The notes under the pieces were generated by a model, which saw nothing but the letters and a program-made list of their open reading frames with translations, made no database searches and was not told where the DNA came from. Of a DNA stretch of 64,000 nt, positions 10,232 through 31,462 are shown one piece after another. The stretch is from Halobacteriovorax sp. GB3. GTDB lineage: Bacteria > Bdellovibrionota > Bacteriovoracia > Bacteriovoracales > Bacteriovoracaceae. The stretch spans positions 868,001-932,000 of the forward strand of contig NZ_JAQSLN010000003.1 in the NCBI RefSeq assembly GCF_028649655.1, read 5' to 3'. Numbering within the stretch: the stretch's first letter is position 1; each line of letters begins with the position of its first letter. Both the position numbers and the translations under genes were made by a program.

Positions 10232-11461
10232 TTATCCACCAAAGTCATCAAGCATGATATCTTCTCTCTCTACACCTAGAGAAACAAGCATCTCGATTAC
10301 ACATTGGTTCATAATTGGAGGCCCACATAGGTAGTACTCGCAATCCTCTGGAGCTGGGTGATCCTTTAAGTACTCATCGTGAAGTACTTGGTGAATAAAC
10401 CCAGTGTATCCTTCCCAATTATCCTCTGGAAGAGCATCAGAAAGAGCACAGTGCCATTTGAAGTTATCGTTCTCTGCTTGAAGACCATCAAAGTCTTCAA
10501 CATAGAACATTTCTCTCCTAGAACGAGCACCGTACCAGAAAGTCATTTTACGCTTAGACTTAAGTCTCTTCAGTTGGTCAAAGATGTGTGATCTCATTGG
10601 CGCCATACCAGCACCACCACCAACGAAAACCATTTCTTTATCTGTTTCACGAGCAAAGAACTCACCAAATGGACCAGAAATAGTAACTTTATCTCCAGCT
10701 TTTAGGCTGAAAATGTATGAAGACATTTTACCTGGAGGAGTTCCTTTTGGAGCTCTTGGAGGAGGTGAAGCAATACGCACGTTAAGCATAATGATCCCTT
10801 CTTCTTCCGGGTAGTTTGCCATAGAGTAAGCTCTAATTGTTTCCTCAGGCTCACTTGAAGTATATTGCCATAGGTTGAACTTATCCCAGTCTTCTCTATA
10901 TTCTTCTTGAACGTCGAAGTCTTTATAGTGAATTGTAAGACCAGCAGGTCTTTCAATTTGGATATATCCACCAGCTCTAAATGGAACTGACTCACCTTCA
11001 GGTAGACCAAGCTTGAATTCTTTAATAAATGTGGCAACGTTATCGTTAGAGATAACAGTACATTCCCACTTCTTAACACCAAAGACTTCTTCAGGTACTT
11101 CAACTTTCATGTCTTGCTTGATAGAAACCTGACAAGCTAGACGACAACCTTCACGTGCTTCACCTTTAGAGATGTGTGAAAGTTCAGTTTCAAGGATCTC
11201 TCCTCCACCTTCGACGACATTTACTTTACATTGACCACAAGTACCCCCACCACCACAGGCAGAAGATACAAATAGTTTTTGATCAGCAAGGGCACCAAGA
11301 AGCTTTCCACCAGCAGGGATTTCTACTTCTTTTTCCCCGTTGATATTTAGCTTAATGTTCCCAGAACTAACTAACTTTGACTTAGCGAAAAGGATGACAC
11401 AGACAAGGGCTAAAACCACAACTGTGAACATCAAAACACCAAGTAGAATTTCGTTGCTCAT
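10232..11461 (-). CDS. nqrF: Na+-translocating NADH:quinone reductase subunit F
   Basis: 409 residues, the usual length. One N-terminal helix (about 5-26) precedes a 2Fe-2S ferredoxin domain with Cys69, 75, 78 and 110, matching the spacing of Vibrio NqrF (70, 76, 79, 111). Next is the FAD/NADH reductase domain: RAYSMANYP for FAD, a GPFGEFF segment, [14 protein letters not shown] for NADH and the CGPPIMN motif near the C-terminus. It takes electrons from NADH through FAD to the cluster and into the Na+ pump in the inner membrane. It is last in nqrABCDEF; 47 bases separate it from nqrE, the largest gap in the operon. Confidence 0.97.
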
Positions 11462-11508
11462 GAGTTATTCTCTCTTTTTAAATCGTTAAACTACTTCTAA
11501 ACCAATAA

Positions 11509-12120
11509 TTAAAGCTGAATCCCAGAAAATGATAGGAATCCAAGGGCCATAAGACCTACAGTGATAAAAGTAATTCCTAGACCTCTAAGACCCTCAGGAA
11601 CATCACTGTACTTCATTTTTTCTCTAATACCTGCAAGTGCTGCAATAGCAAGGGCCCAACCGAGACCTGAACCAAAACCAAACACTACAGACTCTCCAAA
11701 GTTATAATCTCTCTCTACCATGAAAAGTGAACCACCAAGAATGGCGCAGTTTACTGTAATAAGAGGAAGAAAGATCCCAAGCGCGTTATAAAGAGCTGGG
11801 AAAAACTTATCGAGAACCATCTCAAGAATCTGAACGATAGCAGCGATAACACCGATGTAAGAGATTAGACCTAAGAAAGATAGATCAACTCCATTAATAC
11901 CGGCCCACTGAAGAGCGTTCTCTCTTAGAAGGTAAGTATAAAGTAGGTTGTTAACAGGGATTGTAATTGTTTGAACAACAACAACTGCAACACCAAGTCC
12001 TAACGACGTTTTAACTTTTTTAGATACCGCTAAGAATGTACACATTCCAAGAAAGAATGAAAGTGCCAAGTTCTCAACGAAGACTGCTTTAACAAAAAGA
12101 CTTAAATAATGTTCTAGCAT
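11509..12120 (-). CDS. nqrE: Na+-translocating NADH:quinone reductase subunit E
   Basis: 203 residues, six predicted helices, the family's usual size. [20 protein letters not shown] near the N-terminus and a central [11 protein letters not shown] each carry a Cys in a half-helix. In NqrE these supply part of the Cys-ligated iron site shared with NqrD. NqrE and NqrD are inverted-topology homologues, related to RnfA/E. It is in the Na+/electron path between the NqrF cluster and NqrC FMN. The start follows the nqrD stop by one base. Confidence 0.96.
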
Positions 12121-12121
12121 C

Positions 12122-12742
12122 TTAGTTCTCCTTCTCTACTTGGTCTTTTTTCCAAGTTCTAAGTCCCCAAATGAAAATACCAATGAGGAAGAAAGCACTT
12201 GGAGATAAAAGGGCCATACCGTTTGCTGGATACCATCCACCTTCACTTGTTAGTGGAAGAATAGATGCTCCAAAAAGCTTACCTGAACCAAATAGTTCTC
12301 TAAAGACACCTACAAAGAGGAGAACGATAGAATAACCAAGTCCGTTACCGATACCGTCTAGAAAAGACATTACCGGTGAATTTTTCATCGCATAAGCTTC
12401 TGCACGCCCCATAACGATACAGTTAGTAATGATCAGTCCAATGTAAACAGACATCGACTTAGCAACATCGTATACAAAGGCCTTAAGAATCTGATCTGTC
12501 ACGATTACAAGAGAAGCAATAACGGTCATCATAACGATGATACGAATTGCACTTGGAACGTGATTTCTAATTAATGAAACAAAGAAGTTAGAGAATGCTG
12601 TAACAAGTGTTACCGCAAGACACATAACTACTACTGATTCAAGTTTTGTAGTTACCGCAAGGGCCGAACAAATCCCTAGGATCTGTAGAGCAATTGGGTT
12701 GTTTTCAAAGATTGGACCAAAAAGTGTCTTTTTAAAGCTCAT
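12122..12742 (-). CDS. nqrD: Na+-translocating NADH:quinone reductase subunit D
   Basis: I use the ATG at 12742, which overlaps the nqrC stop as TAATG and has AGGGGGG eight bases upstream; it gives 206 residues, as in other NqrD proteins. An in-frame extension of eight residues upstream is unlikely. Six membrane helices. [20 protein letters not shown] and [18 protein letters not shown] carry the two conserved Cys residues expected to co-ordinate iron with NqrE. The protein is homologous to RnfE/RnfA. Tight coupling on both sides implies co-translation with nqrC and nqrE. Confidence 0.96.
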
Positions 12743-13515
12743 TAGTTCATCCCCCCTGCTCTCCATTTAGAAAGAAAAGGACCATATCCATTTTCACCAA
12801 GCCAATATTGAACTGTCCCAGTTACACCATTCGAAGTAAGAGTGGCTCCTGACAGACCATCAATATCTGATTGTGAACCTGCAGCAGCAGGTCCCTTAAC
12901 TACGCGAAGTGCTGGATTCCAGTTTTCATCAAAGGCTTTTTTACCTTTCCATAGTTTTTTCCAGTTCGGGTTATCAATTTCACCACCAAGACCAGGAGTC
13001 TCACCATGAGCATAAAAACCTAAACCTTTAACTGTTGTTGTATCCGGAGTAAGAACTAGGAAACCATACATTGTTGACCATAGTCCTTTACCGTGAACAG
13101 GAAGAACAAGCATTGTCGTCTGTCCATTTTCTTTTACGAAATAAACTTTCTTATACTTTGCTCTAACTTTGATACCAGCTTTATCATTTGAAGCAGCAAT
13201 TCTAACGTTTTGCTTAGGATCTTTAGCAGCTTTAACAGAGTTGTAAGCTTCTACATCCATATCTTCTACGTATTCACCTGTAGAAAGATCGACAATTTTC
13301 GTTTCAATTGACTTGAAAGCTTCGTTGATTACCTTCTCTTGCGCCGTTGAATCTACAAGTCCTGCGGCCATAAGAAGGTTCTTTTTAATATCTAGTCTTT
13401 TGTTTTTCTCTTGAAGTGGCTTCAAAGAAACAGCAGACCAAGAAACTACAACCGAACAGACAACACAAAGAAGTGTCGCGACGATTAGCGTTTTAGAAGT
13501 ACTATCGTTACTCAT
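12742..13515 (-). CDS. nqrC: Na+-translocating NADH:quinone reductase subunit C
   Basis: Two adjacent ATGs occur; the second (13515) is better spaced from AAGGGGG, giving 257 residues. One N-terminal helix anchors a periplasmic FMN domain. [10 protein letters not shown] near residue 219-228 is the ApbE modification site, with the Thr of SGAT expected to carry phosphoester-linked [16 protein letters not shown] and the [12 protein letters not shown] motif are standard for NqrC/RnfG. The apbE gene at 885-1916 supplies the transferase. Confidence 0.96.
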
Positions 13516-13525
13516 CATTTCCCCC

Positions 13526-14731
13526 TTACGCCTTAGCTCTGCTTAGTCTTCTTTTGATGTTTGCATTAACAACAAAGTAGTCAATAAGTGGAGCAAACAT
13601 GTTACCAAAAAGAATAGCTAGCATTGTCCCTTCAGGGAACGCTGGGTTAACAACACGAACTAGAACGACCATAAGACCGATTAGTCCACCATAGAACCAA
13701 TGACCTGTTTGAGTCATCGAAGCTGATACAGGATCAGTTGCCATGAAAACAAGACCAAAGGCCAATCCACCAACAACAAGGTGCCACTCAGGAGTCATCC
13801 CAAACATTGGGTTTGTTGTCGATCCAATCATATTAAAGATGAAAGCAAATACAACAACAGAAAGAAGCATCGATAACATGATTCTCCAAGAACCAATTCC
13901 TGTGTAAACAAGAAGAGTGGCTCCGAGAAGACAAGCTAGAGCTGATGTCTCACCCATTGAACCAGGCATAAGACCAATGAAAGCCTCTTTCCAAGTGTAA
14001 GTGATTGCTTCAACACCACCAAGAGCAGCTTGACCAAGAGCTGTTGCTCCAGTGAAACCGTCTACTGCTGTCCATACTGCATCCCCTGAAATCTCTCCAG
14101 GATAAGCAAAGAATAGGAAAGCACGAGCTGTTAGTGCTGGGTTTAGGAAGTTTTTCCCAGTTCCACCGAAAACTTCTTTACCGATGACAACACCGAAAGA
14201 AATCCCGACAGCAACTTGCCATAGAGGAATTGTAGGAGGAAGAGTTAGTGGGAAAAGAAGACCAGTAACAAGGAATCCCTCATTGATCTCATGTCCTCTT
14301 ACTGTTGAGAAGATAACTTCCCAAAGTCCACCAGCAATATTCGTAACAAGAAATACTGGAAAGAAATAAAGAAAACCGTGAACAAAACAAGCCGCTAAAC
14401 TATTCGGGTCAGTAGCTAGGCCTAAAGCAGCAAGGATTGCACCTCTCCAGCCTTCAACAGCACTCATTCCATTAGCAGCAAGAACTTTGTTTGCTTGAAA
14501 ACCTGTATTGTAACAGGCCATAAGAATACATGGTAGAAGGGCCATGGCCACAGTTACCATTAGACGTTTAAGATCTAGTCCATCACGTACATGTACACTA
14601 CCTTTTGAAACATCACTTGGTGAGTAGATGAACGTGTCAACCATTTCATAAATTGGGTATAACTTCTCGAGCTTTCCACCCTTAGCGAAGTGGTGGTGCT
14701 GAGAATCTAGAAAACCTCTTAGAACCTTCAT
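13526..14731 (-). CDS. nqrB: Na+-translocating NADH:quinone reductase subunit B
   Basis: 401 residues with about ten membrane helices. It begins with the cytoplasmic [18 protein letters not shown] region, contains the FMN site [10 protein letters not shown] (Thr230, corresponding to Thr236 of Vibrio NqrB), and ends [14 protein letters not shown]. NqrB also hosts riboflavin and the quinone/inhibitor site and is the main Na+-conducting subunit. [20 protein letters not shown] matches the RnfD/NqrB core. The ATG directly abuts the nqrA stop (TAAATG), indicating coupling. Confidence 0.97.
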
Positions 14732-16066
14732 TTACCCTTCCTTCTCGATAATAGTTAAGTTGTTTCTTAGTGCTGGTCCAAAATCAACTTTCCCTGGAGA
14801 AGCGAAAGTACAAAGGGCCAGATCTTCCTCATCTAACTCCAGACAACCAAGAGTAACAGCATAATCAGTGTCATTCGTTACTAAGGCCCTTAGAAGTTGA
14901 GTTGGAAGAATATCCATAGGCATTACTGATTCAAACATTCCAACTGGAACCATCGCTCTTTCAGAACCATGAAGTTTCGTTGTAAGGTTGAATTTCTTGC
15001 TTGGAGTAAAGAAAGACAGAAATGTTCTCTTTACAGAAAATTTATCAAAACCTGGTGAATGCCATCCAAAGAACTCTCTCTCTCTATCTTCTTCAAGAAG
15101 AGAAACTTGGTTGTGGTAACGACCAAGGTAAGAGAATGTCTTAACAGCTTTTCTACCATTAAGTACTGAACCAGAGACAACTCTTGTTTCTCCACCAAGA
15201 ACCTCATCTTTAAGAAGAGTTTCTAGACAAGCCCCTTGGCGTGTTCTTAATAGCCTTGGGTTCTTTGCTTGTGGACCACTAACAGCGATAACTTTTTCAA
15301 GCCATAGCTTACCAGTAGTAAAGAGCTTTCCAATTGAAATGACATCTTGGTAACCAACGTGCCATACAAATTTGTTTTCATTCACTGGATCAACAAAGTG
15401 AACGTGAGTTCCAACGTTACCAGCAGGGTGCTTCCCAGAGAATTCTTTTACTTCTACGTTTCCAGCAGTTGGTACTTTAGCTCCCGTTGCTTTACATAGA
15501 TAAGTCTTCCCTTCCGTTAGCTTAGAAATAACTTCTAGACCAACTTTGAAATCATCCGAGTATTCAGAAAGAACAACTTCTGGGTTTACAGCGTGTGGAT
15601 TCGTATCCATTGCCGTAACAAAGACAGAATGTGGTCTTTCGTTAACTCTGGCTACAGTTGAAAAAGGTCTTCTTCTTAGAGAAGTCCATAGACCTGATTC
15701 AATAAGAAGATCTTTTGCTTCTTCGAAAGAAACATTTGATCCCTTACCCTTAAAGTTTGAGAATTCTACTTGCTCGTCACCTTCTACTTCAATGACAAGT
15801 GATTCGAAAACTCTTCTCTCTCCACGGTTTACTTCGACTACTTTTCCAGCTGCAGGAGCTGTAAAAACTAGTCCAGGGTTTTTCTTACACTCAAAAAGTG
15901 CTTGTCCAACCTTAACCGCATCACCAACTTGGACCTTCATCGATGGTTTCATACCAACGTAATCAGGACCTACAACGGCTACTCTCTTAACAGGAGTTGC
16001 CTCTTCGATCTTTTGTGTCGGAGCTCCACTAAGCGGGAGATCCAATCCTTTTTTGATGTGAGTCAT
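14732..16066 (-). CDS. nqrA: Na+-translocating NADH:quinone reductase subunit A
   Basis: The start is the ATG at 16066 (444 residues, beginning MTHIKKGLDLPLSGAP), the standard NqrA N-terminus. The frame is open 78 bases further, but that would add a hydrophobic leader, which makes no sense for this cytosolic subunit. The sequence has the biotinyl-like VGPDYVGMKPSMKVQVGDAV part, the THVHFVDPVNENKFVWHVGY core, and a C-terminal LELDEEDLALCTFASPGK motif. The Shine-Dalgarno is weak (GGGATTGAG about ten bases upstream). It is first in the operon; two perfect palindromes lie 16-39 bases before the ATG. Confidence 0.97.
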   Translation of the reverse strand: MTHIKKGLDLPLSGAPTQKIEEATPVKRVAVVGPDYVGMKPSMKVQVGDAVKVGQALFECKKNPGLVFTAPAAGKVVEVNRGERRVFESLVIEVEGDEQVEFSNFKGKGSNVSFEEAKDLLIESGLWTSLRRRPFSTVARVNERPHSVFVTAMDTNPHAVNPEVVLSEYSDDFKVGLEVISKLTEGKTYLCKATGAKVPTAGNVEVKEFSGKHPAGNVGTHVHFVDPVNENKFVWHVGYQDVISIGKLFTTGKLWLEKVIAVSGPQAKNPRLLRTRQGACLETLLKDEVLGGETRVVSGSVLNGRKAVKTFSYLGRYHNQVSLLEEDREREFFGWHSPGFDKFSVKRTFLSFFTPSKKFNLTTKLHGSERAMVPVGMFESVMPMDILPTQLLRALVTNDTDYAVTLGCLELDEEDLALCTFASPGKVDFGPALRNNLTIIEKEG

Positions 16067-16081
16067 AGCGCTACTCAATCC

Positions 16082-16105
16082 CGTTAACGTTATTAATATT
16101 AATAA
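16082..16105. promoter_or_regulatory. Two adjacent palindromes in the nqrA upstream region
   Basis: CGTTAACG (16082-16089) directly abuts TTATTAATATTAATAA (16090-16105). Both are perfectly self-complementary and sit just upstream of the nqrA start in the divergent gap. They may form an operator or a weak hairpin in the nqrA 5' leader. Confidence 0.35.
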
Positions 16106-16237
16106 AAGACAAATTTTAAATGCTTTTATGTGCGACGATAACAAAAGAAACTAATAATGTAACTAAGTAATTTAAAAAGAATTTGAGTTTTCCTCTCAGC
16201 TAATTTTGCTAATGCGTATCAGCGAAAACAACTTCTA

Positions 16238-27698: not shown

Positions 27699-28082
27699 AT
27701 GAGCGATAAGCCATTTAACATTATCAATAAAGAAGAAGAAACTCAGGCACAATCGGTCATCGATATCGATAAGTCACTTTCACTAGAAGAACAAATCAAA
27801 GGTCTCATTGGATCTTCAGATATTTTTCTTTTTATGAAAGGAACTCCGGATATGCCAATGTGTGGATTCTCAGCAAACTCAGTTGCAATTCTTAGCCAAC
27901 TTGGTAAGAGCTTCAAGTCATTTAATATTCTTGCTGACGACGAAATCAGACAAGGCCTTAAAGAATATTCTAACTGGCCAACTTACCCACAGCTTTACTT
28001 CAAAGGGCAACTCATTGGTGGTAACGATATCATCACTGAAATGTTCCACAATGGTGAGCTAAACCAACTTTTCAATCAATAA
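27699..28082 (+). CDS. grxD: Monothiol glutaredoxin (CGFS type)
   Basis: 127 residues; AAGGAGAATTAT precedes the ATG. About 35 N-terminal residues extend beyond the usual Grx4 start. The active site is MCGFSANSV in the sequence FLFMKGTPDMPMCGFS, followed by NWPTYPQLYFKGQLIGGNDI with the cis-Pro and glutathione-binding GG. CGFS glutaredoxins bind and transfer 2Fe-2S clusters with BolA. It is paired with the BolA gene and ends at a terminator. Confidence 0.94.
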   Translation: MSDKPFNIINKEEETQAQSVIDIDKSLSLEEQIKGLIGSSDIFLFMKGTPDMPMCGFSANSVAILSQLGKSFKSFNILADDEIRQGLKEYSNWPTYPQLYFKGQLIGGNDIITEMFHNGELNQLFNQ

Positions 28083-28114
28083 AAAAAAAGCCTAGCGTAA
28101 GCTAGGTTTTTTTT
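28081..28114 (+). terminator. Intrinsic terminator, probably bidirectional
   Basis: CCTAGC-GTAA-GCTAGG (28091-28106) with a GNRA-type tetraloop, then eight Ts; nine As precede it, which gives Ts on the other strand. It overlaps the last codons of the converging histidine kinase gene. Confidence 0.85.
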
Positions 28115-30216
28115 GGCAATCTTATTTCAAACGTACACCCAAATTCATCATTATTATAGGCCTTAATACTACCACCATGCTCTCTTGCAATTTGATCACA
28201 TAGAGCAAGCCCTATTCCACTTCCGCGAGATTCACGACCCTTAGTAAAGAGATTAAAAATGGACCCCTCCATTCCTTCACTAAGACCATTTCCATTGTCT
28301 TTAAATTTCATAATGACTTCTGAAGCACTTCCTTCAATCGTAAACAAAAAGTGAAATTTTCTCGATATGCTTTTATTTTTAAGAGAGTTATCGACAATGT
28401 TTTGAATAAGCGTTTTAAACTTAAAGCGATCAATCGCCAAGAAGTAATAATCTTTATCAATGTCACATTCTATTTTATCGGCCCTATCCATCAATGGTTT
28501 AGTTAAAGAAATCACTTCTTCAAAGAGAGTATTCATATTAACTTTTTCAAGATTAACACTCTCCATACCAATTCGTGAATATTCGAGAATTCCTCGAACA
28601 AGCTCTCGCATTTGCCCCGTGGCTTCTCGAATATAATTCATTGATCTATCAATATCCTCTCTACTACCTTCGTTAACTGCGACATTTAGAAGTTCAACAA
28701 ATTGCTTGATATGTCGTATAGGCGCTTGCAGGTCGTGACTGGCAACAAAAGCAAATCGCTCTAGAAGCTCATTACTCTTACGAAGATCTCTTGTTTTTTC
28801 TTCGAGGTGACTTTGAACTTGTTTGATATTTGTTACATCAGTTAGAGACCCACTGGCATTGATGGTCTCCCCTTTTTCATTCTTTTCAAGAAAAAGCGAA
28901 CATTTAAGCCAAATAAGTCGATCATTTTTTTTCATACAAAGAATCTCTTCTCTTTGTATTTGAAGATCACGGCTCTTTATGAGATCACGCCACCAAGAAA
29001 AAATGATTCTCTGAGATTCAGGGCAAAGAAGCTTTAGCGTCCATGGACTTTTAAAGGCCCTACGAATAAGTTGCATGTCAATATCTAGAGTTTTCGACTT
29101 GCCTTCCATCCACACTTCATCATTTGTAAAATTGTAATCGAAAAAAAGATCATTTGAAGCAAAGAGAACCTTTTTAAGCTTGATCGCCGCTAGCTTTCTT
29201 TCCGTTATGTCAGAGACTGTTCCAAGCATAAGGTTACTTTCATTTTCTAATTTAATTCCACGGTCTCTAAACCATCGGTACTGATCAGCAACGAAAACTC
29301 TGTACTCAATATCATAGGGAATCTTCTCCTCTACATGATCTTTTAAAGCTCTTTGAATTCGATAACGATCGTGTGGGTGAACAATATCAAGAAATTGCTT
29401 CATGTCGTTTACATGGCCTTTTTCAACTTGATAGAGACTATACAGTTTATCATCCCATTCGATTTGATCAGTGTTTATATTCCACTGCCAAAAGCCATCG
29501 TTGACTCCGCTAATTGCAAGTGAATGTTTTTTGTAATTTTCAATAACCTGACCAGTCGATTCGATAAGAACTGAATTATCAAGAAAATAAAGAACTGTTT
29601 CATCGTTTCTTTTTTCTTTAAAAACTTGGAAGTGATATTTTTTATCTTCTACTTCAAATGTAGCAACACTTCCATCGTCATAGTCATCATTGATATAATT
29701 GAAAAGCTTTTGATCTTTTTCTCCATTTGTCTTTAGTCCCAAGACATCTTTCAAATAAGAGTTCACAAAATTAACATTATCCTTTGAAAAGGAGACAAGA
29801 CCAATGGGTATACGGTTAAAAACTTGAAACATTTCAAGTTCAATCGTTTTAAAAATATCATCCATATTGGGTAGATTTAAAAATCGAGGCATTAATTTTA
29901 AAAGAACAAATGCAGTCACAAGAGAGATGATTGCCGTAAACAATTTAAAAACTCCCGTGTATCGATAGACTCCATGCCAGACAGTAATGATCTGATTGAC
30001 GTGAGTAATTCCGCAAAGAAAGATAAAGCCCGCAAAGAGATAGAAAATCCACTTACTTGGCAGATCATTTCGTTTTTTTGTCAGATAAATGAGGCAACAA
30101 GGGATGAAAAAGTAGCAAAGTGCTATAAGCAGGTCAGAACCAATATGTAATAAAAGAAGATCTTGGCGCCACAGGTAACAATGTCCATGTGGCATGTAAT
30201 TTCCCATCAAACTCAT
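28102..30216 (-). CDS. Ethylene-receptor (ETR1)-type hybrid-less sensor histidine kinase with PAS domains
   Basis: I use the ATG at 30216 (AGGA six bases upstream), giving 704 residues; the frame is open to 30336. Residues 1-110 match the three-helix ethylene-binding domain. Asp28, Tyr35, Pro39, Ile65, Cys68 and His72 stand at the same spacing as Asp25, Tyr32, Pro36, Ile62, Cys65 and His69 of plant ETR1, where Cys and His ligate copper. The short stretches IGSDLLIALCYFFIP and FIFLCGITHVNQI show this. Next are three PAS-like regions (about 125-220, 233-340 and 345-465), then the H-box FVASHDLQAPI (His about 494), N-box VDNSL and GSGIGLAL. There is no receiver domain; one is encoded divergently next door. 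The signal is not known. Confidence 0.85.
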   Translation of the reverse strand: MSLMGNYMPHGHCYLWRQDLLLLHIGSDLLIALCYFFIPCCLIYLTKKRNDLPSKWIFYLFAGFIFLCGITHVNQIITVWHGVYRYTGVFKLFTAIISLVTAFVLLKLMPRFLNLPNMDDIFKTIELEMFQVFNRIPIGLVSFSKDNVNFVNSYLKDVLGLKTNGEKDQKLFNYINDDYDDGSVATFEVEDKKYHFQVFKEKRNDETVLYFLDNSVLIESTGQVIENYKKHSLAISGVNDGFWQWNINTDQIEWDDKLYSLYQVEKGHVNDMKQFLDIVHPHDRYRIQRALKDHVEEKIPYDIEYRVFVADQYRWFRDRGIKLENESNLMLGTVSDITERKLAAIKLKKVLFASNDLFFDYNFTNDEVWMEGKSKTLDIDMQLIRRAFKSPWTLKLLCPESQRIIFSWWRDLIKSRDLQIQREEILCMKKNDRLIWLKCSLFLEKNEKGETINASGSLTDVTNIKQVQSHLEEKTRDLRKSNELLERFAFVASHDLQAPIRHIKQFVELLNVAVNEGSREDIDRSMNYIREATGQMRELVRGILEYSRIGMESVNLEKVNMNTLFEEVISLTKPLMDRADKIECDIDKDYYFLAIDRFKFKTLIQNIVDNSLKNKSISRKFHFLFTIEGSASEVIMKFKDNGNGLSEGMEGSIFNLFTKGRESRGSGIGLALCDQIAREHGGSIKAYNNDEFGCTFEIRLPKKT

Positions 30217-30358
30217 AATAATTCCTAAAATTTTTTTATGTAATATAATGAATGCTAAAGTAATTATAATTACATGGGAGAGGCGGCAAAAGTCCTTTTT
30301 TTTAAAAATTGAGGTTTTATTAAACTTTCTTAACATTTAATTCTTTTAAAATAGAATC

Positions 30359-31462
30359 ATGACAAAAAAGGCAAAAAAAATTCGTATTCTAATTATTGAT
30401 GATTCAAAGCTCGACTGTGCTTTTCTTTTTGAAAGTCTCAAAAAAATGAAACTCTTTGAAGCACAGGTTGAATTTGCTTCCTCTCCTAGTGAATGTCATT
30501 TTGAAAATGCTAATTACGATCTTATTTTCTTTGATTATGCATTTCAGGGAATGACGGCGAGTGATTACATTCTCTCTAACCACGACCTGCTTTCTAACTT
30601 TCCAATTGTCGTAATTAGCGACTGTCAAAGTCCTATCATTGGACATAACATGCTTAAACTCGGTGTTATGGACTTCATAAGTAAAGATGTTGTCATGAGT
30701 TTAAATTTTGATATTTTCATTTCAAATACTCTCGAACGTTTTACTCGTGATCAACACTTAAAAACACTTCTTAAGAACACACAAAAATATACAAGTATCG
30801 TTTCACATGACCTTAGAAACCCTCTTTCAACTATCCAGTCATATCTGGATATTATTTTAGAAGAAGACGCCGATACTCAAAAAGAGATCGTACGCATTTT
30901 GAAAAATACCGTTGAGAGCTCAATGCTCATGCTCGAATCTCTTCTCTCTGATATGCAACTTAAGAATGAAGAAATCATTCTTGATACTAAATCAATTGAT
31001 CCACACGAATATATTGAAAATATAAAAGATGAAGTTAAACAGCTCATCGAAAGTAAAAATTTAAAGTTTGAATTTAAAAATAGGATTAAAGAAGATCAAT
31101 ACATTGAAATTGATCCTATAAAAGTTAAAAACGTACTCCTTAATCTTATTAATAACTCTTGTAAATTTACTGTAGCAGGTGGAACGATTGAGCTTGGAAT
31201 GACTCAAGGAGATCAGAATCATATTCGTCTTTACGTCAAAGATGAGGGATTAGGTATTGAAGAAGAGAGTATCGAAGATCTCTTTGATGATCAAAAGAAA
31301 ACAACTCACCAAGGTGTTCTTGGTCAAAAGGGTTACGGGATCGGACTTCCCTATTGTCAAAAAGTGATTCAAAAGCATAATTCGAAAATTTTTGCCATGG
31401 CCAATTCAACAAAGGGAAGTACGTTTTACTTTGATATTACTTCTAGGCCTTACTCATCGTAA
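30359..31462 (+). CDS. REC-domain histidine kinase (receiver first, kinase second)
   Basis: 367 residues, no membrane segment. Residues 8-125 are a receiver domain: acidic pair Asp14-Asp15, phospho-Asp59 in IFFDYAF, Ser87 and Lys109. After a linker is an H-box (SIVSHDLRNPLSTIQ, His about 150). The ATP-binding domain has NVLLNLINNSC, VKDEGLGIEEES and GYGIGLPYCQ. Receiver-then-kinase order lets an upstream kinase gate this soluble kinase. The divergent ETR-type kinase 142 bases away has no receiver, so this is a plausible partner. The 3' end overlaps yebC by 13 bases. Confidence 0.82.
   Translation: MTKKAKKIRILIIDDSKLDCAFLFESLKKMKLFEAQVEFASSPSECHFENANYDLIFFDYAFQGMTASDYILSNHDLLSNFPIVVISDCQSPIIGHNMLKLGVMDFISKDVVMSLNFDIFISNTLERFTRDQHLKTLLKNTQKYTSIVSHDLRNPLSTIQSYLDIILEEDADTQKEIVRILKNTVESSMLMLESLLSDMQLKNEEIILDTKSIDPHEYIENIKDEVKQLIESKNLKFEFKNRIKEDQYIEIDPIKVKNVLLNLINNSCKFTVAGGTIELGMTQGDQNHIRLYVKDEGLGIEEESIEDLFDDQKKTTHQGVLGQKGYGIGLPYCQKVIQKHNSKIFAMANSTKGSTFYFDITSRPYSS

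Follow-up and report, generated by a model that had tools for sequence, protein, structure and literature searches.

In the 64,000-nucleotide stretch of Halobacteriovorax sp. GB3 DNA analysed here (the window), the minus-strand frame at 28102..30216 translates into a 704-residue kinase which, by homology, is probably a Cu(I)-dependent ethylene receptor that relays its signal through phosphotransfer in the manner of AzoEtr1 and SynEtr1. Receptors of this kind have already been recognised in many bacteria; what stands out is that a sister species keeps the kinase without the ethylene-binding part.

Translation and Pfam matches divide the gene into an ethylene-binding domain, three PAS-like domains, HisKA and HATPase_c, all on the minus strand. 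The ETR1_N match (residues 20-115, 29872..30159), which spans three transmembrane helices in the AlphaFold model, scores 119 bits, the cut-off being 27 (E 8.8e-35). It is followed by a degenerate PAS-like linker (residues ~132-213, 29578..29823; PAS_GdpP E 8e-5, which misses the curated cut-off), PAS_3 (residues 252-327, 29236..29463), and a second PAS domain of the kinase part with a PAS_9 match slightly below the curated cut-off (residues 414-462, 28831..28977). HisKA (residues 486-550, 28567..28761), also matched in the congener, scores 25.6, just under its cut-off of 26.9, and contains the phospho-acceptor His494 in FVASHDLQAPIRHIK; HATPase_c (residues 598-703, 28108..28425) has the N-box and both G-boxes. 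With His494, NIVDNS at 606, DNGNG at 640 and GSGIGL at 665, the kinase boxes are intact, and the protein has the predicted phospho-acceptor and ATP-binding motifs of a two-component sensor kinase. The frame remains open upstream to an alternative ATG at 30336; starting there would extend the protein by 40 residues, including a hydrophobic segment. We retained the start at 30216 assumed in the first-pass annotation, because its ribosome site is better (AGGA at a spacing of 6 nt, versus a poor site at 30336) and it lies 142 bp from the divergent gene, space for divergent promoters, rather than just 22 bp.

The likeness of the N-terminus to ETR1 of Arabidopsis thaliana is far beyond chance: the local alignment, made with an ETR1 sequence whose residue numbers agree with published positions, scores 161, compared with 29.8 +/- 5.3 for 500 shuffles, and together with the Pfam E-value this rules out a fortuitous resemblance. 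Hydropathy and an AlphaFold model (23-sequence alignment, mean pLDDT 81.9) both place three long helices at residues 18-48, 55-81 and 87-113. A PDB sequence search and a Foldseek search with the model returned no meaningful match, and no solved structure of this domain. In ETR1, seven residues are needed for ethylene binding (number given in PMC6682694 and PMC11819568); C65 coordinates copper, mutants of C65 or D25 lose binding, and D25 has been modelled as positioning H69 and touching K91 of helix 3 (PMC11819568). All seven counterparts are found in the window protein, on the minus strand: Asp28 (ETR1 Asp25, 30133..30135), Tyr35 (Tyr32, 30112..30114), Ile38-Pro39 (Ile35-Pro36, 30100..30105), Ile65 (Ile62, 30022..30024) and the equivalents of the two ETR1 copper ligands, Cys68 (Cys65, 30013..30015) and His72 (His69, 30001..30003). 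They are joined by Lys91 in helix 3 (29944..29946), aligned with ETR1 Lys91, the residue whose role in ETR1 is described in PMC11819568.

Collectively, the ETR1_N match, the pocket residues and the intact kinase motifs bear out the initial description of a bacterial sensor kinase with an ETR1-type pocket, and the three N-terminal helices reported with it are likewise predicted. The residue set called complete at that stage needs one addition: all six residues named are present, but the usual list has seven and Ile35, here Ile38, had been omitted. That list, reportedly compiled by Wang et al. in 2006, consists of Asp25, Tyr32, Ile35, Pro36, Ile62, Cys65 and His69. The constant offset of 3 to ETR1 numbering holds up to His72 but not beyond, since helices 2 and 3 are connected by a loop three residues shorter than in ETR1, as they are in AzoEtr1, so that Lys91 aligns with Lys91 at offset 0.

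For the window protein, we infer copper, ethylene binding, a direction of signalling and a partner regulator along the following lines. Within the three N-terminal helices, Cys68 and His72 would bind a single Cu(I), with Asp28, paired with Lys91 of helix 3, positioning the site. Ethylene, or another small Cu(I) ligand, would bind at the Cu(I) and shift the helices; passing through the PAS domains, this shift would alter, and by analogy with ETR1 and SynEtr1 probably lower, autophosphorylation of His494. The phosphate would then be transferred in trans, to an unlinked response regulator or to a REC domain in the product of the divergent gene next door. This product, a REC-HisKA-HATPase protein on the plus strand (30359..31462), also has its gene next to the kinase in the congener (59% identical) and is a possible signalling partner. 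On the other side, the downstream gene is a convergent glutaredoxin ending at 28082. No co-oriented stand-alone response regulator adjoins the window kinase, which thus lacks an overlapping operon of the AzoEtr1 type. The genome contains a copper-type P-type ATPase (TIGR01511, 567 bits), as most genomes do. Elsewhere in the window, the minus-strand genes at 10232-16144 resemble a complete operon for the sodium-pumping NADH:quinone reductase (Nqr), as judged by eye from their translations. Two other window proteins, the DinG-like helicase and ribosomal protein S4, showed uniformly low identity to the genomes behind the named homologues.

The receptor reading is supported by the ETR1_N match, the seven residues with Lys91, the spacing shared with AzoEtr1, the intact kinase boxes, the conservation of the pocket and the genomic copper ATPase. 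It is countered by the lack of an adjacent co-oriented response regulator, unlike in AzoEtr1 and the congener, and by the congener's lack of the sensor.

Of 95 genomes sampled in the window's family, 18 gave an ETR1_N match at E 0.001, and in 17 it exceeded the cut-off; of 291 sampled in the phylum, 46 gave a match and in 43 it exceeded the cut-off. The 14 control genomes had none. When 84,980 species genomes were scanned with the peptide pattern [FY][MI]PHGHC[YF], at least 588 stretches matched, with 575 relatives among the matches listed; the best 80 of these 575 are mostly cyanobacterial, the others including some from Bdellovibrionota, Pseudomonadota, Verrucomicrobiota, Myxococcota and Acidobacteriota. 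Among bacteria the domain is thus common, and within the phylum its occurrence is patchy. With so widespread a domain family, and with two of its bacterial representatives already investigated as ethylene receptors (PMC11819568), the first-pass annotation made the setting sound more surprising than it is.

Among 34 aligned phylum homologues, all of them carriers of the HGHC motif described below, Cys65 and His69 (ETR1 numbering) are invariant, and Asp25 is present in 31 (2 Glu, 1 Asn), Tyr32 in 33, Ile62 in 33 and Lys91 in 32 (2 Arg). Pro36 is kept in just 23 (10 Ser, 1 Leu). Nearly all pocket positions are also kept in the 80 named loci, a set chosen by similarity and by the HGHC motif, so that their conservation is not independent. 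These counts place the window protein in the complete-pocket class. Conservation of Cys68 and His72 had been proposed as a check on the receptor assignment, and its outcome is mixed: both are kept in 34/34 phylum homologues and in the 80 named loci, but the single congeneric orthologue lacks the entire domain.

Proteins with Ser at the Pro36 position (L006, L031-L033, L035-L039 and L043) keep the copper ligands. The Ser36 subgroup of the phylum is well supported in the tree (98/94) and may respond to a ligand other than ethylene. The tree of ethylene-binding domains is otherwise weakly resolved, with L008, which comes from the same family, next to the window domain (94/54), along with gammaproteobacterial rows. 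Composition gave no clear sign of recent transfer: the G+C content of the domain (37.1%) matches that of the window (37.2%), and third-position G+C is slightly above that of the neighbours, over only 115 codons. Two further loci deserve mention. In L028 (genome G289) the ethylene-binding domain is sound apart from a single in-frame TAG where helix 1 begins, reflecting either a pseudogene or a sequencing error, and L054 (Tychonema) has a tandem pair of ethylene-binding-domain genes, the second beginning ~108 bp after the first.

Alignments of the bacterial homologues revealed an additional feature, the HGHC motif at residues 10-13, directly before helix 1 (30178..30189, minus strand). Searching the family and the phylum gave 41 ETR1_N loci, of which 34 have the motif; of the seven loci without it, one is truncated by a contig end and three have variants. 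It lies ahead of the point at which the Pfam ETR1_N model begins, and a literature text search for PHGHC retrieved no paper. Conserved across bacterial homologues, HGHC is missing from ETR1, which has Cys4 and Cys6 at this position instead. We hypothesize that it may be a site of copper entry or loading.

The same motif bears on the strongest competing explanation, which we consider rather unlikely, namely that the domain binds Cu(I) but that in the living cell it senses copper itself or a Cu(I) ligand other than ethylene (carbon monoxide, a different alkene or a thiol). In its favour, the conserved residues specify a Cu(I) site, HGHC is a further conserved element just before helix 1, and neither an ethylene source nor a plant association has been shown for the organism. 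Nevertheless, Tyr35, Ile38, Pro39 and Ile65 are retained although they are not copper ligands and are listed as needed for ethylene binding, and a pure copper sensor would have no obvious need for the full ETR1/AzoEtr1 set.

The sister-species locus comes from the one other genome of the genus compared (G010), in which a profile search gave no ETR1_N match. Its kinase (L138:7268-8758; 496 residues) aligns with window residues 235-701 and is 37% identical over 467 residues, collinear with two single-residue gaps; the flanking glutaredoxin and divergent REC-kinase genes are 70% and 59% identical, respectively, to those of the window. Both the ethylene-binding domain and the first PAS-like domain are missing. 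Since the G010 kinase has no predicted transmembrane segment, and hence is predicted to be soluble, and starts only 99 bp from the divergent gene, the sensor half is wholly absent. Its stop codon and the start of the next gene overlap; the latter encodes a stand-alone response regulator of 121 residues (L138:8755-9120, Pfam Response_reg). A search for a relocated copy of this regulator in the window's genome recognised no orthologue, the best match being 27% identical (E 2e-7). The congener either lost the sensor or never had it; none of 59 family genomes yielded a match to the kinase part as close as this one. The linker PAS of the window protein is weakly similar to that of L008 from the same family (E 5e-4), suggesting that the sensor and the first PAS may travel together. 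That the ethylene-binding domain is only a membrane anchor or relic, with the real input coming through the PAS domains, is improbable: the congener's predicted soluble orthologue dispenses with it and pockets have degenerated in some family members (L018, L019), but decayed members lose the pocket positions, all eight of which are intact in the window protein, and the window domain aligns with its homologues with no internal damage.

Other members of the phylum provide a different arrangement. Stand-alone ethylene-binding domains of 123-140 residues with the whole pocket are encoded at two loci of the window's family (L003 and L004) and at one of its phylum (L029), in each case directly upstream of, or overlapping, a kinase gene (L003:434-2267, L004:1447-2906, L029:1414-3199). 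The partner kinases have a different N-terminus, similar among the three, with a membrane region of roughly four helices that has no Pfam match. Since these kinases possess a membrane domain of their own, the split loci did not come about by a mere frameshift within a fused gene. A similar protein of 121 residues (L034:1453-1818) precedes another membrane kinase. Being absent from the sister kinase and a separate protein elsewhere in the phylum, the ethylene-binding domain looks like a detachable input module. We tentatively raise the possibility, without favouring it, that the domain is an exchangeable input module in this phylum, fused to the kinase in the window protein, absent in the sister species and set as a separate protein against a four-helix kinase in the three split loci, with HGHC as the entry point through which Cu(I) is loaded into the site from the external side of the membrane. 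The split versions would also offer small separable domains for structural work.

Returning to the interpretation of the window protein as an ethylene receptor, a review names cyanobacteria and proteobacteria as having such receptors (PMC7700396), and our literature search combining ethylene receptor with Bdellovibrio returned nothing relevant; the present candidates extend to a lineage for which that search named none. The closest parallel is AzoEtr1 of Azospirillum brasilense, whose residues 1-130 bind 14C-ethylene and whose C75 and D35 correspond to ETR1 C65 and D25 (PMC11819568). Like the window protein, it has an ethylene-binding domain with the seven residues and the helix-3 Lys, followed by PAS and histidine kinase, and the His-to-Lys spacing is 19 in both (H72-K91 in the window protein, H79-K98 in AzoEtr1) (PMC11819568). 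However, AzoEtr1 has one PAS domain in 525 residues and an overlapping downstream gene for a stand-alone response regulator (PMC11819568). The window protein has three PAS-like domains in 704 residues, and a counterpart of that regulator gene lies beside the G010 orthologue but not beside the window kinase. SynEtr1 (slr1212, Synechocystis), likened here by description rather than by alignment, is also a bacterial ethylene receptor kinase with an N-terminal ethylene-binding domain and phosphotransfer signalling, but doubles as a UV-A light receptor (PMC6682694, PMC11819568). By that example, the PAS domains may dominate signalling in the window protein. ETR1 shares the three-helix domain, the seven residues with Lys91 and a downstream histidine kinase, but differs in lacking HGHC and in its longer loop before helix 3. 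It has a GAF instead of a PAS domain and signals mainly via CTR1. Finally, the G010 orthologue occupies the same locus, beside the same divergent REC-kinase neighbour, and is collinear in its PAS-PAS-kinase part; the congeneric pair, with and without the sensor, represents a natural experiment on what an ethylene-binding domain contributes to a histidine kinase.
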